64,000 nucleotides of DNA from Pelagimonas phthalicica (lineage in GTDB: Bacteria; Pseudomonadota; Alphaproteobacteria; Rhodobacterales; Rhodobacteraceae): positions 124,001 through 188,000 of the forward strand of contig NZ_SOAP01000002.1 of NCBI RefSeq assembly GCF_004364805.1, written 5' to 3'. This document shows, in pieces, positions 41,352-48,796 of the stretch. Within the stretch, counting starts at the first letter, position 1. Every line of letters begins with the position of its first letter. Position numbers and translations under genes: made by a program. A model generated the notes under the pieces. That model was not told the DNA's origin, did no database searches, and worked only from the letters and a program-made list of their open reading frames with translations.

Positions 41352-42122
41352 ATGACCCAAATCGATGAATTGCACGGTCGCATCAGCCGTGCGCTGGACC
41401 AGATTGCACAACGTGTCGAAGGGTATGCACCGCCGGAAAGCGCGGGCGAAGATCCCGAGGCCGCCGCCCGTCTGGCCGAGCTTGAGGCAGCGATGAGTGC
41501 TGCACAAGAAGATGCCAAGGCAGCGCAGATCGAAGCCAATGTCGCGCGCGAGGCTGCGGCGGCTGAAGCCGAGAAAACCCGCCAGCTTGAGGATGAGATT
41601 GCCCAGCTGACCGATCAACTGGCCGCTGCCAAAGAGGCCGCGGAAATGGCGGCCTCGGCTGCTCCGGAACCAGAGCCGGAAGCGGAGCCCGTGGCAGAGG
41701 TCGAAGAGCCCGCCGCACCTGCGGTTGATAGCGGCGAATTGGACGCGCTGCGCGAAGAGCTCGAAGACGAAAAGATGGCCAATGCGCAGTTGCAGGAACG
41801 TCTGCGTGTGCTGACCGCCCGGCAGGAGGAGGCTCCGGTCGTCGCTGATACCGGCGGGGATAGTGACCAGCGCGCCGCGATGGAGCAGTTGGACACCGAT
41901 CTGCAACGCCTGCGCGCCGCGAACACCCAGCTTGAGGAAACCATTGTGGCCCTGCGCGAAGCCAACGCCCAGGGCGTCGGCGATCCGCATCTGATCAACA
42001 AGGCCATGCTGGCCGAGCTGGAAAACCTGCGCCGGGCGCGCGCGACCGATATGGCGGAAACCAATGCCGTGCTCGCCGCGATGGAGCCGCTCTTGGCTGA
42101 TGCCGCAGAGGAGAGTGCCTGA
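41352..42122 (+). CDS. Coiled-coil protein of unknown function, coupled to zapA
   Basis: 256 residues from ATG 41352 (GGGGGCAGG upstream). It is almost entirely predicted helix, with heptad-rich, Ala/Glu-rich sequence (about 40-115 and 160-230) and a Pro/Glu-rich hinge EPEPEAEPVAEVEEPAAP near 120-135. No enzyme motif. Overlap with zapA (TGATG) suggests a partner in Z-ring control; this is inferred from position. Confidence 0.8.
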   Translation: MTQIDELHGRISRALDQIAQRVEGYAPPESAGEDPEAAARLAELEAAMSAAQEDAKAAQIEANVAREAAAAEAEKTRQLEDEIAQLTDQLAAAKEAAEMAASAAPEPEPEAEPVAEVEEPAAPAVDSGELDALREELEDEKMANAQLQERLRVLTARQEEAPVVADTGGDSDQRAAMEQLDTDLQRLRAANTQLEETIVALREANAQGVGDPHLINKAMLAELENLRRARATDMAETNAVLAAMEPLLADAAEESA

Positions 42123-42520
42123 TGTCACAGATCGAAGTCGAAATCGTCATTGGTGGCCGTACCTTTGAGGTGGCTTGCCAGGATGGCGAACAGCAATTCC
42201 TGCAATCCGCCGCGCGTCTGCTTGATGCCGAGGCCAGCGTGCTGGTGGGCCAGATCGGCCGCATCCCCGAGCCACGCATGTTGCTGATGTCTGGCCTGAT
42301 GCTGGCAGACAAAACCGCCGGGCTTGAGGAAAAGCTGCGCGAGGCGGATGACAAGATGGCGGCTTTGCAGGCCGAGTTGGACGAGCTCAAGAGCGCACCA
42401 CCGCCCATGCCCGAAAAGGTCGAGGTCCCGGTGATCCCCGGCAATGTGACCGATGGTCTGGCCGAATTGGCCGCGCAGGCCGAAGCACTGGCAGCCTCAG
42501 TGGATGAGAAGCTGGCTTAA
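42122..42520 (+). CDS. zapA: Cell division protein ZapA
   Basis: 132 residues. N-terminal EIVIGGRTFEVACQDGEQQFLQSAARLLDAE is the ZapA domain that bundles FtsZ filaments (read here as VIGGRTFEVAC...). A coiled coil follows at about 65-90, with a short acidic, Pro-containing C-terminal region. Usually much shorter C-termini; the extension resembles that of other alphaproteobacteria. Confidence 0.88.
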   Translation: MSQIEVEIVIGGRTFEVACQDGEQQFLQSAARLLDAEASVLVGQIGRIPEPRMLLMSGLMLADKTAGLEEKLREADDKMAALQAELDELKSAPPPMPEKVEVPVIPGNVTDGLAELAAQAEALAASVDEKLA

Positions 42521-42540
42521 GCTTCGCTCTTCACCAAAAC

Positions 42541-42569
42541 AAAAAGCGCCCCGATTGAGGGCGCTTTTT
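42541..42569 (+). terminator. Bidirectional terminator between zapA and grxD
   Basis: AAAAAGCGCCC-cgattga-GGGCGCTTTTT, T-rich on both strands. It lies between convergent genes and can serve both. Confidence 0.85.
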
Positions 42570-42594
42570 CTTTGGCTCTTCCTGAATAAAGAGA

Positions 42595-42957
42595 TCAGGC
42601 GTTGGCCTCACGGATCTTGTCCGCTGCCTCTTTGTTGTACGCCAGACCATTTTCATCAAACAATGTGTCCAGCTCGCCCGAAAGGGTCATCTCGGTGACG
42701 ATATCGCAGCCGCCGACAAATTCGCCTTTGACATAGAGCTGCGGGATGGTTGGCCAGTCGGAATAATCCTTGATGCCCTGACGGATCGCATCGTCGGCCA
42801 GAACGTTCACATCCGTGTATTCCAGGCCCATATAGTTCAGCACACCGGCCACACGGCTTGAAAAGCCACATTGCGGCATGTCCTTGGTGCCCTTCATGAA
42901 CAGCACCACATCATTGGCTTTGACGGTTTCGTCGATTTGGGTCTTTGCGTCAGTCAT
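42595..42957 (-). CDS. grxD: Monothiol glutaredoxin (Grx4 type)
   Basis: 120 residues with the CGFS active site ([14 protein letters not shown]), [19 protein letters not shown] (in parts: [14 protein letters not shown]). Monothiol glutaredoxins bind a bridging 2Fe-2S cluster with BolA and deliver it; the bolA-like gene lies 380 bp upstream in the same transcript. Confidence 0.95.
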
Positions 42958-43093
42958 CTTGTTGCTCCTCTAAGCGGCGTTTGCGCTCTTTGCGGATGTA
43001 AGGGGTCAGCGCGCCATAGGTCAGCACGCCCAACACGGCGAGACAGGCCAGGATGGGCCAAACATTGTTGAGATAGTTGGCCAGCCCGGTCAT
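42950..43093 (-). CDS. Small membrane protein (47 aa) between bolA and grxD
   Basis: Starts [20 protein letters not shown], continues with a single hydrophobic helix to about residue 30, then a basic tail ([15 protein letters not shown]). It overlaps the grxD start by 8 bp and begins 5 bp after bolA stops, so it is inside the operon. Its stop TGA is at 42950-42952. Positive-inside charge suggests the C-terminus is cytosolic. Function unknown. Confidence 0.7.
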
Positions 43094-43097
43094 GGGA

Positions 43098-43334
43098 TCA
43101 ATCCGGGGCCTTGGTGGTCAGAGCCAGCGCGTGCAATTCGCCGCTGGGGCCGTCCATCTTGCCTTTGAGGGCGGCATAGACGGCGCGCTGCTGCTGTACG
43201 CGATTTTTTCCGCGAAAGCTTTCGTCGATGATCATGGCAGACATATGGACACCATCATCGCCTGCCACCTGGATTTCGGCATCCGGAAAGGTCTCGCGCA
43301 GCAGGTCTTCGATTTCTTGGGCATGCATCGGCAT
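43098..43334 (-). CDS. BolA family protein
   Basis: 78 residues from ATG 43334 (PMHAQEIEDLLRETFPDAEI...). The BolA core DGVHMSAMIIDESFRGKNRVQQQRAVYAAL contains the conserved His and FxGKxRVxRQR-like motif (here FRGKNRVQQQRAVY). Partner of the glutaredoxin in iron-sulfur regulation. Longer ORF start at 43427 is unlikely. Confidence 0.9.
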   Translation of the reverse strand: MPMHAQEIEDLLRETFPDAEIQVAGDDGVHMSAMIIDESFRGKNRVQQQRAVYAALKGKMDGPSGELHALALTTKAPD

Positions 43335-43454
43335 GTGGCCTTGGCCTCCGGTTTGTTGTCTTTCCTGACAGAAATAGGGCGATGCCCGGCCCGGCGCAAG
43401 CGCTTGCCGCCACTTGCGCCCCACCATTTGGTCGCGCCCTTGGGCAATCAGGCG

Positions 43455-44237
43455 TTAGATGTCCAACTCAATCCAGACCGGCACGTGATCTGATGGCTTT
43501 TCGCGCCCGCGCACATGGGCGTCGATTTTGCAGTCGACCATTTTATCAGCCGCCTGCGGTGTCAGCAGGAAATGGTCGATGCGAATGCCATTGTTCTTTT
43601 GCCAGGCCCCGGCCTGATAGTCCCAGAAACTGTAATGCTCTGGCCCTTGAGTGCGGGCGCGAAAGGCCTCGGTAAAGCCGAGATTCAGGATCCGGCGAAA
43701 GGCTGCGCGGCTTTCGGGGCGATAAAGCGCGTCCTCGGTCCAATCCTGCGGGCGGGCGGCATCTTCGGCCTGGGGGATGATATTATAGTCACCGGCCATC
43801 AGCGCGGGCATCTCACCCTCCAGCAATTGCTGGGCGCGTGTCTGCAGCCGTTCCATCCAGGCCAATTTGTAATCATATTTTGGTCCGGGGGCCGGGTTGC
43901 CATTGGGCAGATACAGCCCACAGATGCGGATCGCATCCCGTTCGCCCATCACGGTGGCCTCGATCCAACGCGCCTGTTCATCTGATTCGTCGCCGGGCAA
44001 GCCGCGGGTCACGTCTTCTAGGGGCAGTTTGGACAGAATAGCGACACCGTTGAAGCTCTTCTGCCCATGGGTTTCCACATTATAGCCGCGCTCTTCGAAA
44101 TCCTGACGCGGAAAAGCGTCATCAACTGACTTGATCTCCTGCAGCAGTGCCACATCTGGTTGTGCTTCGTCCAACCATGCAAGCAGTGCGGGCAGCCGCG
44201 CCTTGATACCATTGATGTTGAATGTGGCGATTTTCAT
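43455..44237 (-). CDS. xthA: Exodeoxyribonuclease III
   Basis: 260 residues. NINGIKARLPALLAWL, LLQEIKSVDDAFP (metal Glu), HGQKSFNGVAILSK, GLYLPNGN, AGDYNIIP and KPSDHVPVWIEL are exonuclease III/AP endonuclease motifs. Repairs abasic sites and trims 3' ends. Confidence 0.96.
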   Translation of the reverse strand: MKIATFNINGIKARLPALLAWLDEAQPDVALLQEIKSVDDAFPRQDFEERGYNVETHGQKSFNGVAILSKLPLEDVTRGLPGDESDEQARWIEATVMGERDAIRICGLYLPNGNPAPGPKYDYKLAWMERLQTRAQQLLEGEMPALMAGDYNIIPQAEDAARPQDWTEDALYRPESRAAFRRILNLGFTEAFRARTQGPEHYSFWDYQAGAWQKNNGIRIDHFLLTPQAADKMVDCKIDAHVRGREKPSDHVPVWIELDI

Positions 44238-44299
44238 GAACGCACTCCCTTTGCCTTTCTATCGCTGAAAGCGGGGGCAGAGCGCAAGGAAACTATGTG

Positions 44300-44480
44300 A
44301 CTCGGGTGCGATTCGGAATCACTAAAATTTGCAATAAAGTGTTGCATTGCAAAGTTTCAACTTATCCACAGGAAAGTTGAATCTGTGGATAAAATTGATT
44401 CAAAATCAACTTGAAGACATTGCGATAACTAATTGATGTGGATAACTTTTTGCGACCACAACCTTAACGGGAATTAACTA
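44300..44480. other. AT-rich region with three perfect DnaA boxes and paired TTAAC sites (origin-like)
   Basis: TTATCCACA at 44362-44370 (plus strand) and the same box on the minus strand (TGTGGATAA) at 44384-44392 and 44437-44445, all exact matches to the DnaA consensus, in 84 bp. The surrounding DNA is clearly A+T-rich for this genome. Direct TTAAC repeats (44464 and 44474) resemble, with N6 in place of N7, the CtrA site TTAA-N7-TTAA. The 311-bp gap between the divergent xthA and the repeat-protein gene holds no ORF. No hemE, parA, rho or dnaA gene is near, so an origin is possible but not shown. Confidence 0.5.
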
Positions 44481-44548
44481 TTATGCAAACGCGGTAGGGT
44501 GGCAGCTTTGGGGGGCAACAACACGCAACTCTCAAACGGAGAATTCCA

Positions 44549-45088
44549 ATGTCTGCTCAACACAAGCACATGATTTCTGAACAAACCGTTTCCAAAGTGG
44601 AAACAAGCGCGCTGACCGGTGAAGCTGTGGAAATGTTCACCTCGTGGTCTGGTCCGGCGGGTGGCAATACCGAAGCCGGTGACGCGGTCGAGATGTTCAC
44701 ATCCTGGTCTGGCCCATCTGCCGGGAACACCGATGCAGGGGACGCCGTTGAAATGTTCACCTCTTGGAGCGGCCCTGCAAGCGGAAATACCGACGCCGGA
44801 GACAACGTAGAGATGTTTACCTCGTGGAGCGGCCCGGCGGGCGGCAACACCGATGCCGGTGACAATGTAGAAATGTTCACCTCGTGGAGCGGCCCGGCGG
44901 GCGGCAATACCGAAGCAGGTGACAATGTCGAAATGTTCACATCTTGGTCCGGTCCAGCAGGCGGCAACACCGATGCCGGCGACAGCGTCGAAGCCTTCAC
45001 ATCCTGGTCTGGCCCGGCGGGCGATCAGATCGATGCGGGTGACAATGTCGAGGCCTTTACCTCCTGGTCCGGTCCAGTCACCGCCTAA
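44549..45088 (+). CDS. Protein of eight 20-residue repeats, unknown function
   Basis: 179 residues. Residues 1-26 form a non-repeated leader (MSAQHKHMISEQTVSKVETS); from residue 27 the unit VEMFTSWSGPAGGNTDAGDN recurs at 27, 47, 67, 87, 107, 127, 147 and 167, the last cut to 13 residues. Every unit keeps F-T-S-W-S-G-P. No cysteine; eight Trp. Start has GGAG seven bases before. Serine in W-S is coded by both TCN and AGC, so the protein pattern is kept by selection rather than by fresh copying. No signal peptide or membrane segment. It could be a multi-core peptide precursor, a repeat scaffold, or a binding protein. Unrecognised by me. Confidence 0.8.
   Translation: MSAQHKHMISEQTVSKVETSALTGEAVEMFTSWSGPAGGNTEAGDAVEMFTSWSGPSAGNTDAGDAVEMFTSWSGPASGNTDAGDNVEMFTSWSGPAGGNTDAGDNVEMFTSWSGPAGGNTEAGDNVEMFTSWSGPAGGNTDAGDSVEAFTSWSGPAGDQIDAGDNVEAFTSWSGPVTA
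44627..45085 (+). repeat. Eight in-frame 60-bp tandem repeats
   Basis: Units begin at 44627 and recur exactly every 60 bp, with the last truncated. DNA identity between units is lower than protein identity, most changes being synonymous. Confidence 0.9.
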
Positions 45089-45159
45089 CCCCTTATCAGG
45101 CTTCAGAATCCGGGCGGGCGTCGCTGCTCTGCCTCACCGACCAAGAGGAGTACCTTATT

Positions 45160-46242
45160 GTGACAAATGTCATCGCGCTCAACGTTCCGACCCGGATTCT
45201 GCCTCAGGAGGCGCGGATCTCCGCGCTTCTGGGTTGCTTTTCCCAAGACCGCCGCATCTCGGATGATGTGTTCTGGCTCAAGGAAAATGCGGAACTTTTG
45301 AACATTCTGGAATGCACCGGCCAATCGGTGCATCCCGAAACCCTGCAGCTTTTCGAAGGATTTTACCAAAACGCCGAAAAGCGGCTGCAATTCTTTCCTC
45401 AATATTACCGCTTTCTGCTGTCTCTTGCTTTGGACCTAGAGGATCTGGGCCTGCCAGGGGATGTCGCGCAACGCATGGTGGATTTCGCAAAACAACAGGA
45501 CCTGCCTTTGGCCGAACTCTCGGATCTGCAACGTGCAGAGGCGCGCAGGCTGATGATTCGCCGTGGGGTAGAAAGCGTCAGAGATGAAGGGCTAGATGAC
45601 CGTTTGCGCGCATTTGCCGCCCGAACGCACACTTTTTCCCTGCCAAACAAGAAAGCTGCGTATGAATTAACACATATTTCATTCTACCTGAGCGAGTACG
45701 GTCGACGTGACCCGAAACTTAGCGTAGAAGGGAAGTTGAGTTTGCATTTCGCCGGATTGACCGCCTTTCTTGATCAGAACGCTGATTTGTTGGCCGAAAT
45801 CTGCATTGCGCTCCGTTACGCGGGGGTGGTGCCACCGAAAATCTGGACTGATTGGTTAAAAACGGAAACAGTAGGGTTCATAATAGAAGATGGAGACCAT
45901 GTGCCGCTGAATGATGATTATCACGCGTTTCTGGTGTGCAATTGGCACCAAGCGGTCGCCGGTGGCCCGCTCTTTCGTATGCCCATTCCGGGCGGGCGGA
46001 TGCGTTTTGAGCATCATCATCGCGCCACTGCTTTGCGTGAGATTTCGCAAGTCATGCTTTCTTTGGATGATGCGCGCAGCGGTGATTGGCATGTGATGCG
46101 CAACCGCATGGCCCCACAACTCTCCCCCGAGGCGCGGGACGTGTTGAACATCGCCGCCGAAAGCAGCACCGAATTCGACGCCTTTTTCGAAGGCTTCGCC
46201 CGCGCCAACCAGCGCATCAGCCAGGGAGGGCGGTTGTCATGA
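45160..46242 (+). CDS. Conserved-looking protein of unknown function (360 aa), next to the repeat protein
   Basis: GTG start with GAGGAG nine bases before. No signal peptide. Mostly alpha-helical by composition. Distinct segments: HPETLQLFEGFYQNAEKRLQ, KKAAYELTHISFYLSEYGRRD (a likely His/Tyr/Asp site, around residues 166-185) and FLVCNWHQAVAGGPLFRMPI near 255-275. Probably one of the uncharacterised DUF families of Rhodobacteraceae, which I cannot name with certainty. It lies 71 bp after the repeat protein and overlaps the EamA gene by 4 bp (ATGA), so the last two are coupled. Confidence 0.8.
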   Translation: MTNVIALNVPTRILPQEARISALLGCFSQDRRISDDVFWLKENAELLNILECTGQSVHPETLQLFEGFYQNAEKRLQFFPQYYRFLLSLALDLEDLGLPGDVAQRMVDFAKQQDLPLAELSDLQRAEARRLMIRRGVESVRDEGLDDRLRAFAARTHTFSLPNKKAAYELTHISFYLSEYGRRDPKLSVEGKLSLHFAGLTAFLDQNADLLAEICIALRYAGVVPPKIWTDWLKTETVGFIIEDGDHVPLNDDYHAFLVCNWHQAVAGGPLFRMPIPGGRMRFEHHHRATALREISQVMLSLDDARSGDWHVMRNRMAPQLSPEARDVLNIAAESSTEFDAFFEGFARANQRISQGGRLS

Positions 46243-47141
46243 AGGCCACAACTCTCGGAGCGCTGCTCGTCATTATATATACCGGTATGATGGCCGGGGC
46301 GGATGGCATCACCAAATTCATCGCCGGAGGCTATGAAGCACCGCAGCTCTTTGCGCTTTCCGCCGCCTTGGTTGTGCTGATGGCCGCGGGGGCCACCCGT
46401 GTCAGCAAGGGCGAAACCCTGCGCATCCATTCGGTCAAACCGATGATCGCCCGCTCGGTCCTGACCGTGATTGCCGCCGTGGCCTTTTTCAAGGCCTTTA
46501 TGTTGCTGCCTTTCGCTGACGTCTTTTTGTTCATTGGCCTGATGCCTTTGATCGCGGCGGCCATGTCGGGCCCTATGCTGGGGGAAACCCCGCGCCCCTT
46601 GGCCTGGGTGGCTCTTGGGATCGGGGCCTGCGGGGTGTTTTTCCTGATGCCCGGCGGGATTAGCGGCATGCAAGCTGGTCATTTCTGGGCCTTCGCCGCT
46701 GCCATCACCGGCACGGCCTCCATGCTTTTGGCCCGTGTCATTGCCCAAGTCGAACGTGCGCCTCTGGCGCAAGTCTTCTGGCCCAACCTGGCGCTTTTGA
46801 TCGCCATGGGCGCGGCCTTGCCCTTTGTCTGGCGGCCCATGAGCTTTGCCGATGCCGGCTGGATCGTCGGTTACGCGGTCTTCCTCTTTGGCGCACGCTA
46901 TGTGGTGGCCGAGGCGCTGCGGCTCTTGCCCGCCTATGTGGCCACCCCGCTGATGAACCTGCAATTTGTCTGGATGGTTGCCATCGGCATGGTCGCCTTT
47001 GGTGAAATCCCCGGCACCGGCACTGTTCTGGGCGTGATGCTGGTCATCGCCTCGGGCCTGTGGCTGGTGATCGAGGAAAGCCTGCAGCGCAAGAAGATCG
47101 ATGCGCAACAGGCCAACTCCGCCGCCATCGCTGCTGAATAA
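46239..47141 (+). CDS. EamA/DMT-family transporter
   Basis: 300 residues from ATG 46239, overlapping the upstream gene. Ten hydrophobic segments and the two EamA repeats: GALLVIIYTGMMAGADGITKF and SGMQAGHFWAFAAAITGTASM. Family members export amino acids, cysteine pathway metabolites or nucleosides. Could export a product of the two preceding genes, but that is inference from linkage. Confidence 0.85.
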   Translation: MKATTLGALLVIIYTGMMAGADGITKFIAGGYEAPQLFALSAALVVLMAAGATRVSKGETLRIHSVKPMIARSVLTVIAAVAFFKAFMLLPFADVFLFIGLMPLIAAAMSGPMLGETPRPLAWVALGIGACGVFFLMPGGISGMQAGHFWAFAAAITGTASMLLARVIAQVERAPLAQVFWPNLALLIAMGAALPFVWRPMSFADAGWIVGYAVFLFGARYVVAEALRLLPAYVATPLMNLQFVWMVAIGMVAFGEIPGTGTVLGVMLVIASGLWLVIEESLQRKKIDAQQANSAAIAAE

Positions 47142-47159
47142 AAGACTCACCAATCAAAT

Positions 47160-47194
47160 AAGGCCTCCGCAACCAGCACTGCGGAGGCCTTTTC
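47160..47194 (+). terminator. Terminator after the EamA gene
   Basis: AAGGCCTCCGCA-8 nt-TGCGGAGGCCTT followed by TTC on the plus strand. Perfect 12-bp stem. Confidence 0.85.
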
Positions 47195-47214
47195 TATTTC
47201 AAGCCCGTGCCAGC

Positions 47215-47538
47215 CTACATCGAGAAAGATGTGCCACAACCGCAGGAACTGCTGGCGTTTGGATTGTCGATGGTGAACCGCGCGCCGATCAATTCATCGC
47301 TGAAATCAATGGTCGCGCCCGCCAGAAAGGGCAGGGAGACCGGGTCAACCACAACCTTTTCGCCGCTTTCCTCCAGCACCAGATCATCGCCTGCTGGCTC
47401 GTCCAACTTGATCTCATATTGAAAACCACTGCACCCGCCGCCTTCGACCGCGACACGCAGGGCTTTGCCATCCTCGGCGGCACCGATTTCAGACAGCCGT
47501 TCATAGGCGCGGGGGGTGACAATTGGGGGCAGTTGCAT
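47215..47538 (-). CDS. Iron-sulfur cluster insertion protein (ErpA/IscA type)
   Basis: 107 residues. A-type carrier Cys residues: GGGCSGFQYEIK and the C-terminal SCGCGTSF. Transfers iron-sulfur clusters to apoproteins. Divergent from dgt. Confidence 0.92.
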   Translation of the reverse strand: MQLPPIVTPRAYERLSEIGAAEDGKALRVAVEGGGCSGFQYEIKLDEPAGDDLVLEESGEKVVVDPVSLPFLAGATIDFSDELIGARFTIDNPNASSSCGCGTSFSM

Positions 47539-47614
47539 GGGATCTCTCGCGGTTTATCTCTGCGCAGAATTGCAATATAGGGCGGCTTGGGACAAGCGAC
47601 AAGGAGCGCAGATC

Positions 47615-48796
47615 ATGCGCGCATATTTTGCCTGTGATCCGCAAGCGGTGCGGGGCCGGCTTTATGACGAAGAAGAAAGCGCGCATCGCTCGTGCTTTCA
47701 ACGGGATCGGGATCGGATCATTCATTGTTCGGCCTTTCGGCGGCTGAAACACAAAACTCAGGTCTTTGTGGAACATGAGGGCGATTTCTATCGCACCCGG
47801 CTGACCCATTCGATCGAGGTCGCGCAGGTGGCGCGTACCATTGCCAATGCGTTGGGATTGAACACCGATCTGACCGAGGCAGTGGCGCTGGCCCATGATC
47901 TTGGCCATACGCCCTTTGGCCATACTGGCGAAGACGCCCTGGATCTACTGATGCAGCCCTATGGCGGGTTTGATCACAATGCCCAGACCCTGCGGATTGT
48001 GACCTCGCTCGAACGGCACTACGCCGAATTCAACGGCTTGAACCTGACCTGGGACACGCTCGAAGGGATCGCCAAACATAACGGTCCGGTCACCGGCGAC
48101 ATTCCTTATGCCTTGGCCGAATATAACGCGCTGCATGATCTTGAATTGCACACCCATGCCAGCGCCGAGGCCCAGGTGGCGGCCCTGTCGGATGATGTGG
48201 CCTATAACAATCACGACCTGCATGACGGCCTGCGCGCCGGATTGCTGCAGGAAAGTGACGTCATGGATCTGCCCATTGTCGGCGCGGCCTATGCCGAGGT
48301 CGACAAGGCCTATCCCGATATTGACGCTTATCGGCGCCGACACGAGGCCTTGCGTCGGGTCTTTGGGGTCATGGTCGTCGATGTGCTGACAGAGTCTAAG
48401 GCGCGACTGGCCTCTTCGGGGTGCAAGACCGCGCAGGACATCCGTGAACTGGGCGCGCCGGTCATTGCCTTTTCTGACGCGCTTTGGGCCGAGCTCAAGG
48501 TGATCCGCAGCTTCCTCTTTTCCAACATGTATCGCGCCCCAACCGTGATGGAGCAGCGCCGCCGGGTGACCATCGCCCTGAACGAGCTTTTTCCGATCTA
48601 TATGCAAGACCCGACCCTGTTGCCCCAACGCTGGCAGGTCGACCCAAGCGCACTGGAAGATGAGGTCACCCGCGCCCGTCTGGTCGCGGATTACGTGGCA
48701 GGCATGACGGATCGCTTTGCCTTGCAGCAGCATATCCAGCTGACCGGGCGCGATGTGCTGGAGGGGTTGGCGCAATCCGGGCTTCCCCCCAGTTAG
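47615..48796 (+). CDS. dgt: Deoxyguanosinetriphosphate triphosphohydrolase-like protein
   Basis: 393 residues from ATG 47615 (AAGGAG nine bases before). HD-domain metal site: RLTHSIEV, ALAHDLGHTPFGHTGE, and NAQTLRIVT after it. Splits dNTPs to nucleosides and triphosphate. N-terminal conserved RDRIIHCSAFRRLKHKTQVF is the usual pre-HD segment. Confidence 0.93.
   Translation: MRAYFACDPQAVRGRLYDEEESAHRSCFQRDRDRIIHCSAFRRLKHKTQVFVEHEGDFYRTRLTHSIEVAQVARTIANALGLNTDLTEAVALAHDLGHTPFGHTGEDALDLLMQPYGGFDHNAQTLRIVTSLERHYAEFNGLNLTWDTLEGIAKHNGPVTGDIPYALAEYNALHDLELHTHASAEAQVAALSDDVAYNNHDLHDGLRAGLLQESDVMDLPIVGAAYAEVDKAYPDIDAYRRRHEALRRVFGVMVVDVLTESKARLASSGCKTAQDIRELGAPVIAFSDALWAELKVIRSFLFSNMYRAPTVMEQRRRVTIALNELFPIYMQDPTLLPQRWQVDPSALEDEVTRARLVADYVAGMTDRFALQQHIQLTGRDVLEGLAQSGLPPS

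Follow-up and report, generated by a model that had tools for sequence, protein, structure and literature searches.

A repeat-peptide gene linked to DUF6902 in marine Rhodobacteraceae points to a possible new RiPP family

Introduction

Precursors with several copies of a short core are known among the ribosomally made, modified peptides (RiPPs) from cyanobactins, orbitides, and the fungal dikaritins, and the yeast alpha-factor precursor follows an analogous logic. In pearlin systems, a small molecule is assembled on a peptide scaffold by a PEARL enzyme and then cut off. Within the Pfam family DUF6895, one protein is a lasso-peptide epimerase, going by the title of Shi et al. (2026, ACS Catal., doi 10.1021/acscatal.5c08590) as cited in PMC13352647. 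In the Alphaproteobacteria there are cell-cycle promoters controlled by DnaA and CcrM, according to passages in PMC3708114 and PMC4287350.

The locus described here lies in a 64,000-nt stretch of the Pelagimonas phthalicica genome, called the window below. Its repeat protein resembles multi-core RiPP precursors in having a leader, identical short cores, recognition and spacer segments, and a varying copy number, but in the operon Pfam and NCBIfam identify none of the maturation enzymes of cyanobactin, orbitide, or dikaritin systems. In the PMC literature searched, no mention was found of FTSWSGP, of DUF6902, or of Rhodobacteraceae and RiPPs together.

The repeat gene and its neighbors

The operon has the following features:

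44549..45088, + strand: repeat gene, encoding a multi-core precursor-like protein of 179 aa (ORF reading, repeat pattern, co-occurrence with DUF6902)
44549..44614, + strand: leader-like N-terminus MSAQHKHMISEQTVSKVETSAL, ahead of unit 1 (protein anatomy)
44636..45075 (G000:C2:168636-169075), + strand: extent of the eight FTSWSGP-type DNA matches (DNA pattern search)
45160..46242, + strand: DUF6902 protein, putative peptide-modifying enzyme, 360 aa, GTG start (Pfam match, alignment, predicted fold)
46239..47141, + strand: EamA-family transporter, possible exporter (family match; 77 of 100 loci)
47160..47191, + strand (other strand also scored): terminator-like inverted repeat past EamA (8 such sites in the region vs. 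4.2 expected)

The unit of the repeat protein, G(D/E)xVE(M/A)FTSWSGP plus a spacer, is 20 residues long and occurs eight times. The strict spacing claimed in the original prediction is borne out, with FTSWSGP starting at residues 30, 50, and so on to 170, exactly 20 apart. In the 4.89 Mb genome the corresponding DNA pattern has eight matches, all at the repeat gene, and the reversed pattern has none. Compared codon by codon over the seven full units, pS between units is 0.66, yet the FTSWSGP amino acids are unchanged in all eight, in agreement with the earlier reading of synonymous divergence as selection on the peptide. On this codon comparison, each repeat unit is under strong purifying selection.

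The coordinates likewise reproduce the predicted 71-nt gap between the repeat gene and the DUF6902 gene, and the overlap of the latter's end with the start of the EamA gene, which is 4 nt. A profile scan from 42122 to 48793 names ZapA, Grx4, BolA, Xth, DUF6902, EamA, an ErpA-like protein, and Dgt; xth is the divergent neighbor of the repeat-gene operon. Within the operon, neither Pfam nor NCBIfam recognizes a known RiPP enzyme, an RRE, or a protease. A lasso peptide cluster was rejected on finding no lasso cyclase or leader peptidase among the genes scanned, and anti-phage defence on finding no PADLOC family for the repeat protein or DUF6902. A search for DUF6902 on plasmids gave no PLSDB match.

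Distribution in the Rhodobacteraceae

DUF6902 is present in 108 of 394 same-family genomes, from about 107 genera, and among the samples searched it is above cut-off only in this family. A profile of the precursor matched 99 of the 394, all of them among the 108 with DUF6902. It matched none of the 286 without, where at most 14 first-look candidates were scored per genome, so that weak precursors might escape. Among 61 relatives, the repeat-protein and DUF6902 queries match the identical 10 genomes. Of 324 named relatives, the 80 best were inspected, and a precursor was seen in 79; the remaining one is masked.

One hundred loci (L062-L161) were compared, representing 99 of the 108 DUF6902 genomes plus G002; the others are the genome of the window itself and G165, G207, G224, G297, G346, G354, G395, and G416. 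By script or by eye, a precursor lies upstream of DUF6902 in 97. One is masked, and none was found upstream in L145 and the very divergent L161. With the EamA protein of the window as tblastn query, 77 of these loci have a match, directly adjoining DUF6902 in 73 and 120–284 nt off in a further four, and 23 have none. The original prediction had raised the question of constant co-occurrence; DUF6902 accompanies the repeat gene in all 99 repeat-positive genomes, with no instance of the repeat gene on its own, but EamA is not a constant partner. In 16 of 20 DUF6902-negative genomes, the 1500-nt flank of xth contains erpA but no EamA match, a comparison that lacks a positive control because flanks of 1500 nt are too short to reach EamA in five DUF6902-positive genomes.

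DUF6902 and its relation to DUF6895

The 360-residue protein was first taken as unrecognized, but databases do name it. It matches Pfam DUF6902 (PF21843; E 2.7e-160, 533.5 bits against a gathering cut-off of 27) and, more weakly, DUF6895 (PF21836; E 1.6e-19, 70.9 bits against 23.8, residues 29–222). Compared directly by hhalign, the two families match with E 1.1e-6 and a probability of 91%. Nine residues are invariant in an alignment of two DUF6902 and six DUF6895 proteins, and seven of these (Y168, H172, G181, D209, E213, Y254, and H255) are kept in all 38 rows of alignment A2. On these sequence comparisons the protein is best filed under DUF6902, as a homologous sister of DUF6895. The resemblance extends to the surroundings, as a small ORF lies directly upstream in all six DUF6895 loci looked at (G493 and G504, below cut-off, were left out; L303, in G267, was known only from the ORF list), and these small neighbor genes have a leader-plus-core look. 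DUF6902 differs from DUF6895 in having a partner with 2–20 short cores and a different leader, and, unlike the lasso-epimerase case, the DUF6902 gene of the window has no adjoining lasso genes.

Homology to DUF6895 makes peptide epimerization the first chemistry to consider. If the product is a RiPP, this is a tentative assignment, with odds somewhat short of even. It is unlikely that DUF6902 instead modifies the repeats in some other way, with its predicted toroid acting like a protein prenyltransferase or a LanC-like cyclase, or through some different, novel reaction at Ser, Thr, Cys, or Trp. The predicted fold is mostly helical and toroid-like, in which it may recall the alpha/alpha toroids of protein prenyltransferase beta subunits, class II terpene cyclases, and LanC. 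The aligned rows have 4–13% identity, and Foldseek gave no match at E<=0.001; a PDB sequence search for solved relatives gave nothing below E 0.6.

Core variation among relatives

Precursors in this family share a layout, with a short N-terminal leader followed by cores that are flanked by variable spacers and by recognition-like segments of the form G-D/E-x-V-E-x. They carry 2–20 copies of the core, as counted from the commonest 4-mer in ORFs chosen automatically, possibly wrongly for some. Of the precursor ORFs from 91 relatives, 69 have the loosely defined start motif M-x(1,2)-[AS]-x(1,3)-K (a raw count, with no chance control).

The core is five residues long, mostly F-x-[S/T]-x-x, and is FTSWS in the window. 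One type predominates per genome and differs between genera, as would be expected for a multi-core precursor, with 42 types at 97 loci (twelve labels set by hand, L097 entered as "?", and two loci having none). On a FastTree phylogeny of DUF6902 with many weak forks, for which Marivita cores were entered by hand and L097 was taken as FTSWS, the core changes 57 times, and the lowest of 100 shuffles gives 67; for Trp-containing cores the corresponding values are 8 and 20. Because both fall below the shuffles, the cores appear to turn over and yet to track DUF6902. The precursor C-terminus falls exactly at a core in 54 of 93 cases (excluding L097, L105, L108, L143, L160, and the two loci without a precursor), and by eye also in L119, L138, and L157.

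The main rival reading takes the repeat protein as a stable structural scaffold (such as a beta-solenoid, or a surface or amyloid-like protein), with DUF6902 as its chaperone or assembly partner and no chemical modification. The strict 20-residue period in the window and the purifying selection on every unit would both suit it. So would the top AlphaFold2 model, with stacked strands, one per unit, a mean pLDDT of 68.4, and block means of 70–83 mid-protein. Tandem repeats can mislead AlphaFold2, however, and the other four models have mean pLDDT values of only 59.0, 50.7, 44.3, and 37.8. Precursors with just two units exist (L146, L149, L155, and L160), the best period differs among loci (mostly 19–21), and core residues change freely among genera (for example MMCCS, LSPSC, and LMPTS), all of which speaks against a scaffold, as does a partner sharing its Y/H/D/E/YH residue set with DUF6895. 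A scaffold is rather improbable, but the alternative stands because the strands are modeled at moderate confidence and the RiPP product is itself a proposal.

DnaA boxes upstream of the repeat gene

The region upstream of the precursor gene has the following features:

44310..44314, + strand: GATTC (GANTC) site, 127 nt ahead of box 3 (sequence reading)
44362..44370, + strand: DnaA-box-like TTATCCACA, box 1 (exact match)
44384..44392, - strand: DnaA-box-like TTATCCACA, box 2, 22 nt past box 1 (exact match)
44437..44445, - strand: DnaA-box-like TTATCCACA, box 3, 75 nt past box 1 and 53 past box 2 (exact match)
44462..44478, + strand: CCTTAACGGGAATTAAC stretch 3' of box 3, recurring in close relatives as CCTTAACAAGAATTAAC (comparison)

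These three exact boxes, within 84 bp just upstream of the precursor gene, are the only ones in the window, for which a mean of 0.22 is expected; none of 100 shuffles reaches three. The whole genome has 29, with no other two less than 1 kb apart. Allowing one mismatch, boxes are found at only 66 of 91 DUF6902 loci (L097, L145, L161, L108, L107, L087, L111, L141, and L160, which are masked, near a contig end, or without a standard precursor, are excluded). A separate first-pass box count used precursor ORFs picked automatically, some of them wrong. Spacings of about 22, 53, and 75–76 bp are preferred across genera. At the 47 loci where two boxes stand at such a spacing, 49 of the 63 GATTC occurrences lie 121–150 nt ahead of box 3. 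A scan for a sigma-70-type promoter upstream of the precursor gave nothing. This DnaA-box promoter region is conserved, and was absent from the original prediction. It resembles the DnaA/CcrM cell-cycle promoters, as far as passages in PMC3708114 and PMC4287350 describe them, in bringing DnaA boxes together with a GANTC site within a single promoter region, and differs in that the boxes precede a putative secondary-metabolite operon and have preferred spacings. This layout suggests that precursor output probably follows DnaA activity and the replication or methylation state.

Searched at the xth flank, the 1500 nt beyond xth have no DnaA box in 20 of 20 DUF6902-negative genomes and one to three in five of five DUF6902-positive ones, two of the five having only the variant TGTGCATAA. 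Regulation of the divergent xth by the boxes was rejected on this ground. So was an oriC, also because in the one complete genome sampled (G167) the locus is at 2.57 Mb, off the GC-skew switch. Among 20 skew samples of 20 kb, those from 0.2 to 1.73 Mb are mostly positive (two slightly negative) and those from 1.94 Mb on all negative, and the locus sits between samples of -0.035 and -0.055.

The boxes could also be a titration or DARS/datA-like replication-control site that the peptide operon merely adjoins. Their clustering, unique in this genome, and their preferred spacings across genera would fit, but their presence with DUF6902 and absence without it in the xth flanks searched, their position just upstream of the precursor gene, and the placement of the G167 locus away from the origin as judged by GC skew make this improbable. 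Very unlikely is a pearlin-like logic, in which the repeats would be a scaffold for building and cutting off a small molecule: such a role would suit EamA as an exporter of small molecules, and the adjoining EamA genes, the DUF6902-negative xth flanks without EamA, and the precursors ending at a core speak for it, but neither Pfam nor NCBIfam names a ligase-like (PEARL) enzyme in the operon.

Proposed function

The preferred reading, with a probability of about 0.62, is a RiPP-like operon consisting of a multi-core precursor, DUF6902 as putative maturase (possibly an epimerase), an optional exporter, and replication-linked control. A small leader-plus-core precursor is genetically linked to a maturase candidate, as in RiPP systems. 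The resemblance to ribosomally made peptide systems seen in the original prediction gains from the co-occurrence with DUF6902, from cores that are nearly uniform inside each genome yet differ from genus to genus, and from the homology to DUF6895; its exporter turns out not to be obligatory, and its scaffold alternative persists. On this RiPP-like model, the repeat gene would give a precursor with a short leader and 2–20 short cores between recognition-like segments, DUF6902 would bind it and modify every core, host proteases would free short peptides, and EamA, where present, would export them. GANTC and the spaced DnaA boxes would tie output to DnaA activity and to replication or methylation state.

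A bolder version, speculative and on balance improbable, would be a new class of multi-core RiPPs with species-specific pentapeptide cores, possibly containing D-residues, behind a DnaA/GANTC promoter. Each producer would then emit a peptide of its own, coordinated with chromosome replication, and this peptide might serve as a growth-state signal specific to kin.

If the preferred reading is true, two Pfam families that lack an assigned function would gain one: DUF6902 and the greater part of DUF6895 would be enzymes that modify peptides, sharing a residue signature and having visible substrates, and DUF6902 by itself would cover about 107 genera in the searched sample. An enzyme tolerating so many natural cores would be a useful peptide-editing tool, and a peptide pathway behind DnaA boxes and GANTC would be a rare direct link from replication control to peptide output. 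Overall, the small repeat-peptide gene and DUF6902, found together in many marine Rhodobacteraceae and often behind DnaA-like sites, point to a possible new RiPP family that may be timed to the cell cycle.

The repeat gene and its neighbors

The features of the operon in the window are as follows.
44549–45088, + strand: repeat ORF, encoding the 179-residue precursor-like protein
45160–46242, + strand: DUF6902 gene, encoding the 360-residue partner protein
46239–47141, + strand: EamA transporter gene
47160–47191: terminator-like inverted repeat downstream of EamA

The eight FTSWSGP copies originally predicted at a strict 20-residue spacing are borne out both by reading the ORF, where the spacing is exact, and by a genome-wide search for the corresponding DNA pattern (eight matches, all at the repeat gene; none in a reversed control). 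Codon-by-codon comparison of the seven full units gives pS = 0.66 with FTSWSGP constant, so the copies are old and selection acts on every one, in keeping with the selection on the peptide proposed from their synonymous divergence.

The second gene, at first described as unrecognized, is assigned by Pfam to DUF6902 (E 2.7e-160) and also matches DUF6895, less strongly but still significantly (E 1.6e-19); an NCBIfam search up to E 1 gave no match. As predicted, it begins 71 nt past the repeat gene (GTG, 45160) and its end is overlapped by EamA, by 4 nt. Housekeeping genes flank the locus: those for ZapA, Grx4, BolA, and Xth on one side, and for an ErpA-like protein and Dgt on the other. In 100 DUF6902 loci from relatives, xth was detected in 94, and erpA and dgt in 90 each. 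EamA was present in 77, and in 73 it was on the same strand and no more than 120 nt from DUF6902. Of 20 genomes lacking DUF6902, 16 have erpA no more than 1500 nt from xth, with no EamA match in that flank, a comparison without a positive control because flanks of this length were too short to include EamA in five DUF6902-positive genomes. From these counts and the flank comparison, EamA accompanies the operon in most genera, yet is dispensable.

Co-inheritance of the repeat gene and DUF6902

Separate searches of 61 relatives with the two proteins matched the identical 10 genomes. DUF6902 is present in 108 of 394 same-family genomes sampled, and a 13-row repeat profile matches 99, with no match in the 286 genomes without DUF6902. 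The original prediction had turned on whether the two always co-occur: all 99 genomes matched by the profile also have DUF6902, and no repeat gene without it was found among the 394. Nine DUF6902 genomes gave no profile match: five have a divergent repeat gene recognizable by eye (G067, G125, G289, G308, G386), one retains just a fragment close to the end of a contig (G165), and one was left out of this check (G416). No repeat gene was seen in the other two, G065 and G313; the latter retains DUF6902 with a promoter-like tail upstream, where neither a precursor nor an exact DnaA box was seen (locus L145).

Among the best 80 of 324 named relatives, the closest of which are Pelagimonas, the repeat gene was seen in 79, the remaining one being masked. 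Among 289 genomes sampled across the class, DUF6902 scored above cut-off in three, all from the same family as the window; one genome outside the family (G039) had a sub-cut-off match over 60 residues. None was found in PLSDB plasmids.

Cores and arrays

Each unit consists of G-(D/E)-x-(V/T)-x-x-F and a five-residue core (FTSWS in the window), followed in most cases by A-P or G-P and then by a spacer that varies. There is one predominant core per genome, with 42 types across 97 loci (twelve labels assigned by hand). F occupies position 1 in 91 of the 97, and S or T occupies position 3 in 89; the residues at position 4 are G, W, S, A, C, and T, and those at position 5 are S, L, A, C, and M. Thirteen Marivita loci, with DUF6902 proteins 73–88% identical, have six core types (FTSGS, FTCGL, IMSAS, FTSGL, FTTSC, FTSAS). 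Mapped onto a FastTree phylogeny of 100 DUF6902 proteins, core type changes 57 times (lowest of 100 shuffles, 67) and presence of a Trp-containing core eight times (lowest shuffle, 20), so core turnover is fast, yet tracks the enzyme tree. Repeat number, for which a comparison among relatives had been proposed, does vary, with a median of 7 units and a range of 2–20, and by script count the array ends exactly at the core in 54 of 93 precursors. In three loci (L119, L134, L138) the last-unit core (FSSGS or FTSGS) differs from the array majority (FSTSC, FTSSS, FTTSC), perhaps as a relic of core replacement.

A solenoid is possible for the repeat protein, since the best AlphaFold2 model has one strand per unit (mean pLDDT 68.4; the other four models, 38–59), but the existence of two-unit precursors and the freedom with which cores change both argue against it. 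The pattern seen, a near-uniform product per genome that varies from one relative to another, is what a multi-core precursor should show, and is less expected of a scaffold.

Relationship of DUF6902 to DUF6895

When DUF6902 was compared by profile with three DUF6895 proteins, the probability was 91% (E 1.1e-6). In an alignment of two DUF6902 and six DUF6895 proteins, the latter from Pseudomonadota, Actinomycetota, and Bacillota, nine residues are invariant (Y168, H172, F175, G181, D209, E213, Y254, H255, V259); apart from F175 and V259, none of these varies in a 38-row DUF6902 alignment either. At all six DUF6895 loci examined, which score above the Pfam cut-off (L300, L301, L302, L310, L311, L312), a small ORF lies within ~80 nt upstream. 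These ORFs share a leader-like stretch, approximately L..SG(I/L)(I/V)(D/N), followed by an aromatic hydrophobic stretch (for example GPWFVL, DWTFVSPNYVYK, or WDKYVLVV; two of the six have two), in an alignment that is weak overall (mean column identity 29%).

At L300:2266–5553, an MFS transporter, an O-methyltransferase, and a C70/C39-like papain-fold protease are encoded near the DUF6895 gene, possibly a larger RiPP cluster. On Streptomyces and Kitasatospora plasmids (L310, L311), the DUF6895 gene is near one for an IPT/TIG-domain protein, and the stretch includes a type I polyketide synthase gene.

One DUF6895 protein is reportedly a lasso-peptide epimerase, going by the title of a 2026 paper. 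As this is the only chemical precedent, epimerization is offered as a first hypothesis for DUF6902 chemistry, not as a result; given a RiPP, it is conceivable, if somewhat doubtful, that DUF6902 is an epimerase.

The upstream region

A region absent from the original prediction, 44310–44445, has an array of DnaA-box-like sites and positioned GANTC upstream of the repeat gene, and recurs across genera.
44362–44370, + strand: box 1
44384–44392, − strand: box 2
44437–44445, − strand: box 3

The DnaA box, TTATCCACA, occurs exactly three times in the window (0.22 expected), each time just upstream of the repeat gene. Genome-wide there are 29 sites vs. 31 for a reversed control, and no other pair is within 1 kb, so it is their clustering rather than their number that is unusual. 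In a first pass over the 100 loci (878,536 nt), 75 of 100 matches to TTAT(C/G)CACA fell inside the 660-nt windows preceding precursors. A refined count in 91 loci, allowing one mismatch within 400 nt upstream, found boxes in 66 vs. six in reversed sequence (144 boxes vs. 6), and none recognizable in 25. Pair spacings peak at 75–76, 53, and 22 nt, with a pair 74–77 nt apart in 47 of the 100 loci. Among named relatives, 76 loci have sufficient sequence upstream, and in 55 of these an exact box lies 200–1700 nt upstream of DUF6902. Beyond xth, a 1500-nt stretch contains one to three boxes in five of five DUF6902 genomes (in two, only the variant TGTGCATAA), and none in 20 of 20 genomes that lack DUF6902.

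GANTC, the established CcrM site (also given as such in PMC3708114), has a density of 6.8 per kb upstream of the precursor vs. 1.1 per kb over whole loci, and 49 of 63 GATTC occurrences are 121–150 nt before box 3. On balance, the promoter region would seem to be replication-linked, via its putative DnaA sites. The locus as a replication origin is ruled out in the complete genome G167, where it lies at 2.57 Mb, on the far side of the switch in sampled GC skew (mostly positive to 1.73 Mb, negative from 1.94 Mb onward).

Proposed function

The arrangement of the genes, their co-inheritance, the pattern of cores, the homology of the enzyme, and the promoter layout are all observed. In the proposed mechanism, DUF6902 would recognize the leader and/or the G-D-x-V-E segments and modify the F-x-S/T-x-x cores, host proteases would cleave between units, and EamA, where present, would export the product, with operon expression tracking DnaA and methylation state. 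The RiPP-like reading first put forward gains from co-inheritance, the core pattern, and the DUF6895 homology and loses something to the AlphaFold2 strand model, to the 25 of 91 loci with no recognizable box, and to a Pfam/NCBIfam scan of the operon proteins that named no protease or RiPP recognition element; for the precursor and DUF6902 operon its probability is put at roughly 0.75–0.8. Overall, the observation holds and is of greater interest than its first description suggested: the precursor-enzyme pair is widespread and inherited together, its cores are specific to lineages, and a promoter region with DnaA boxes recurs.
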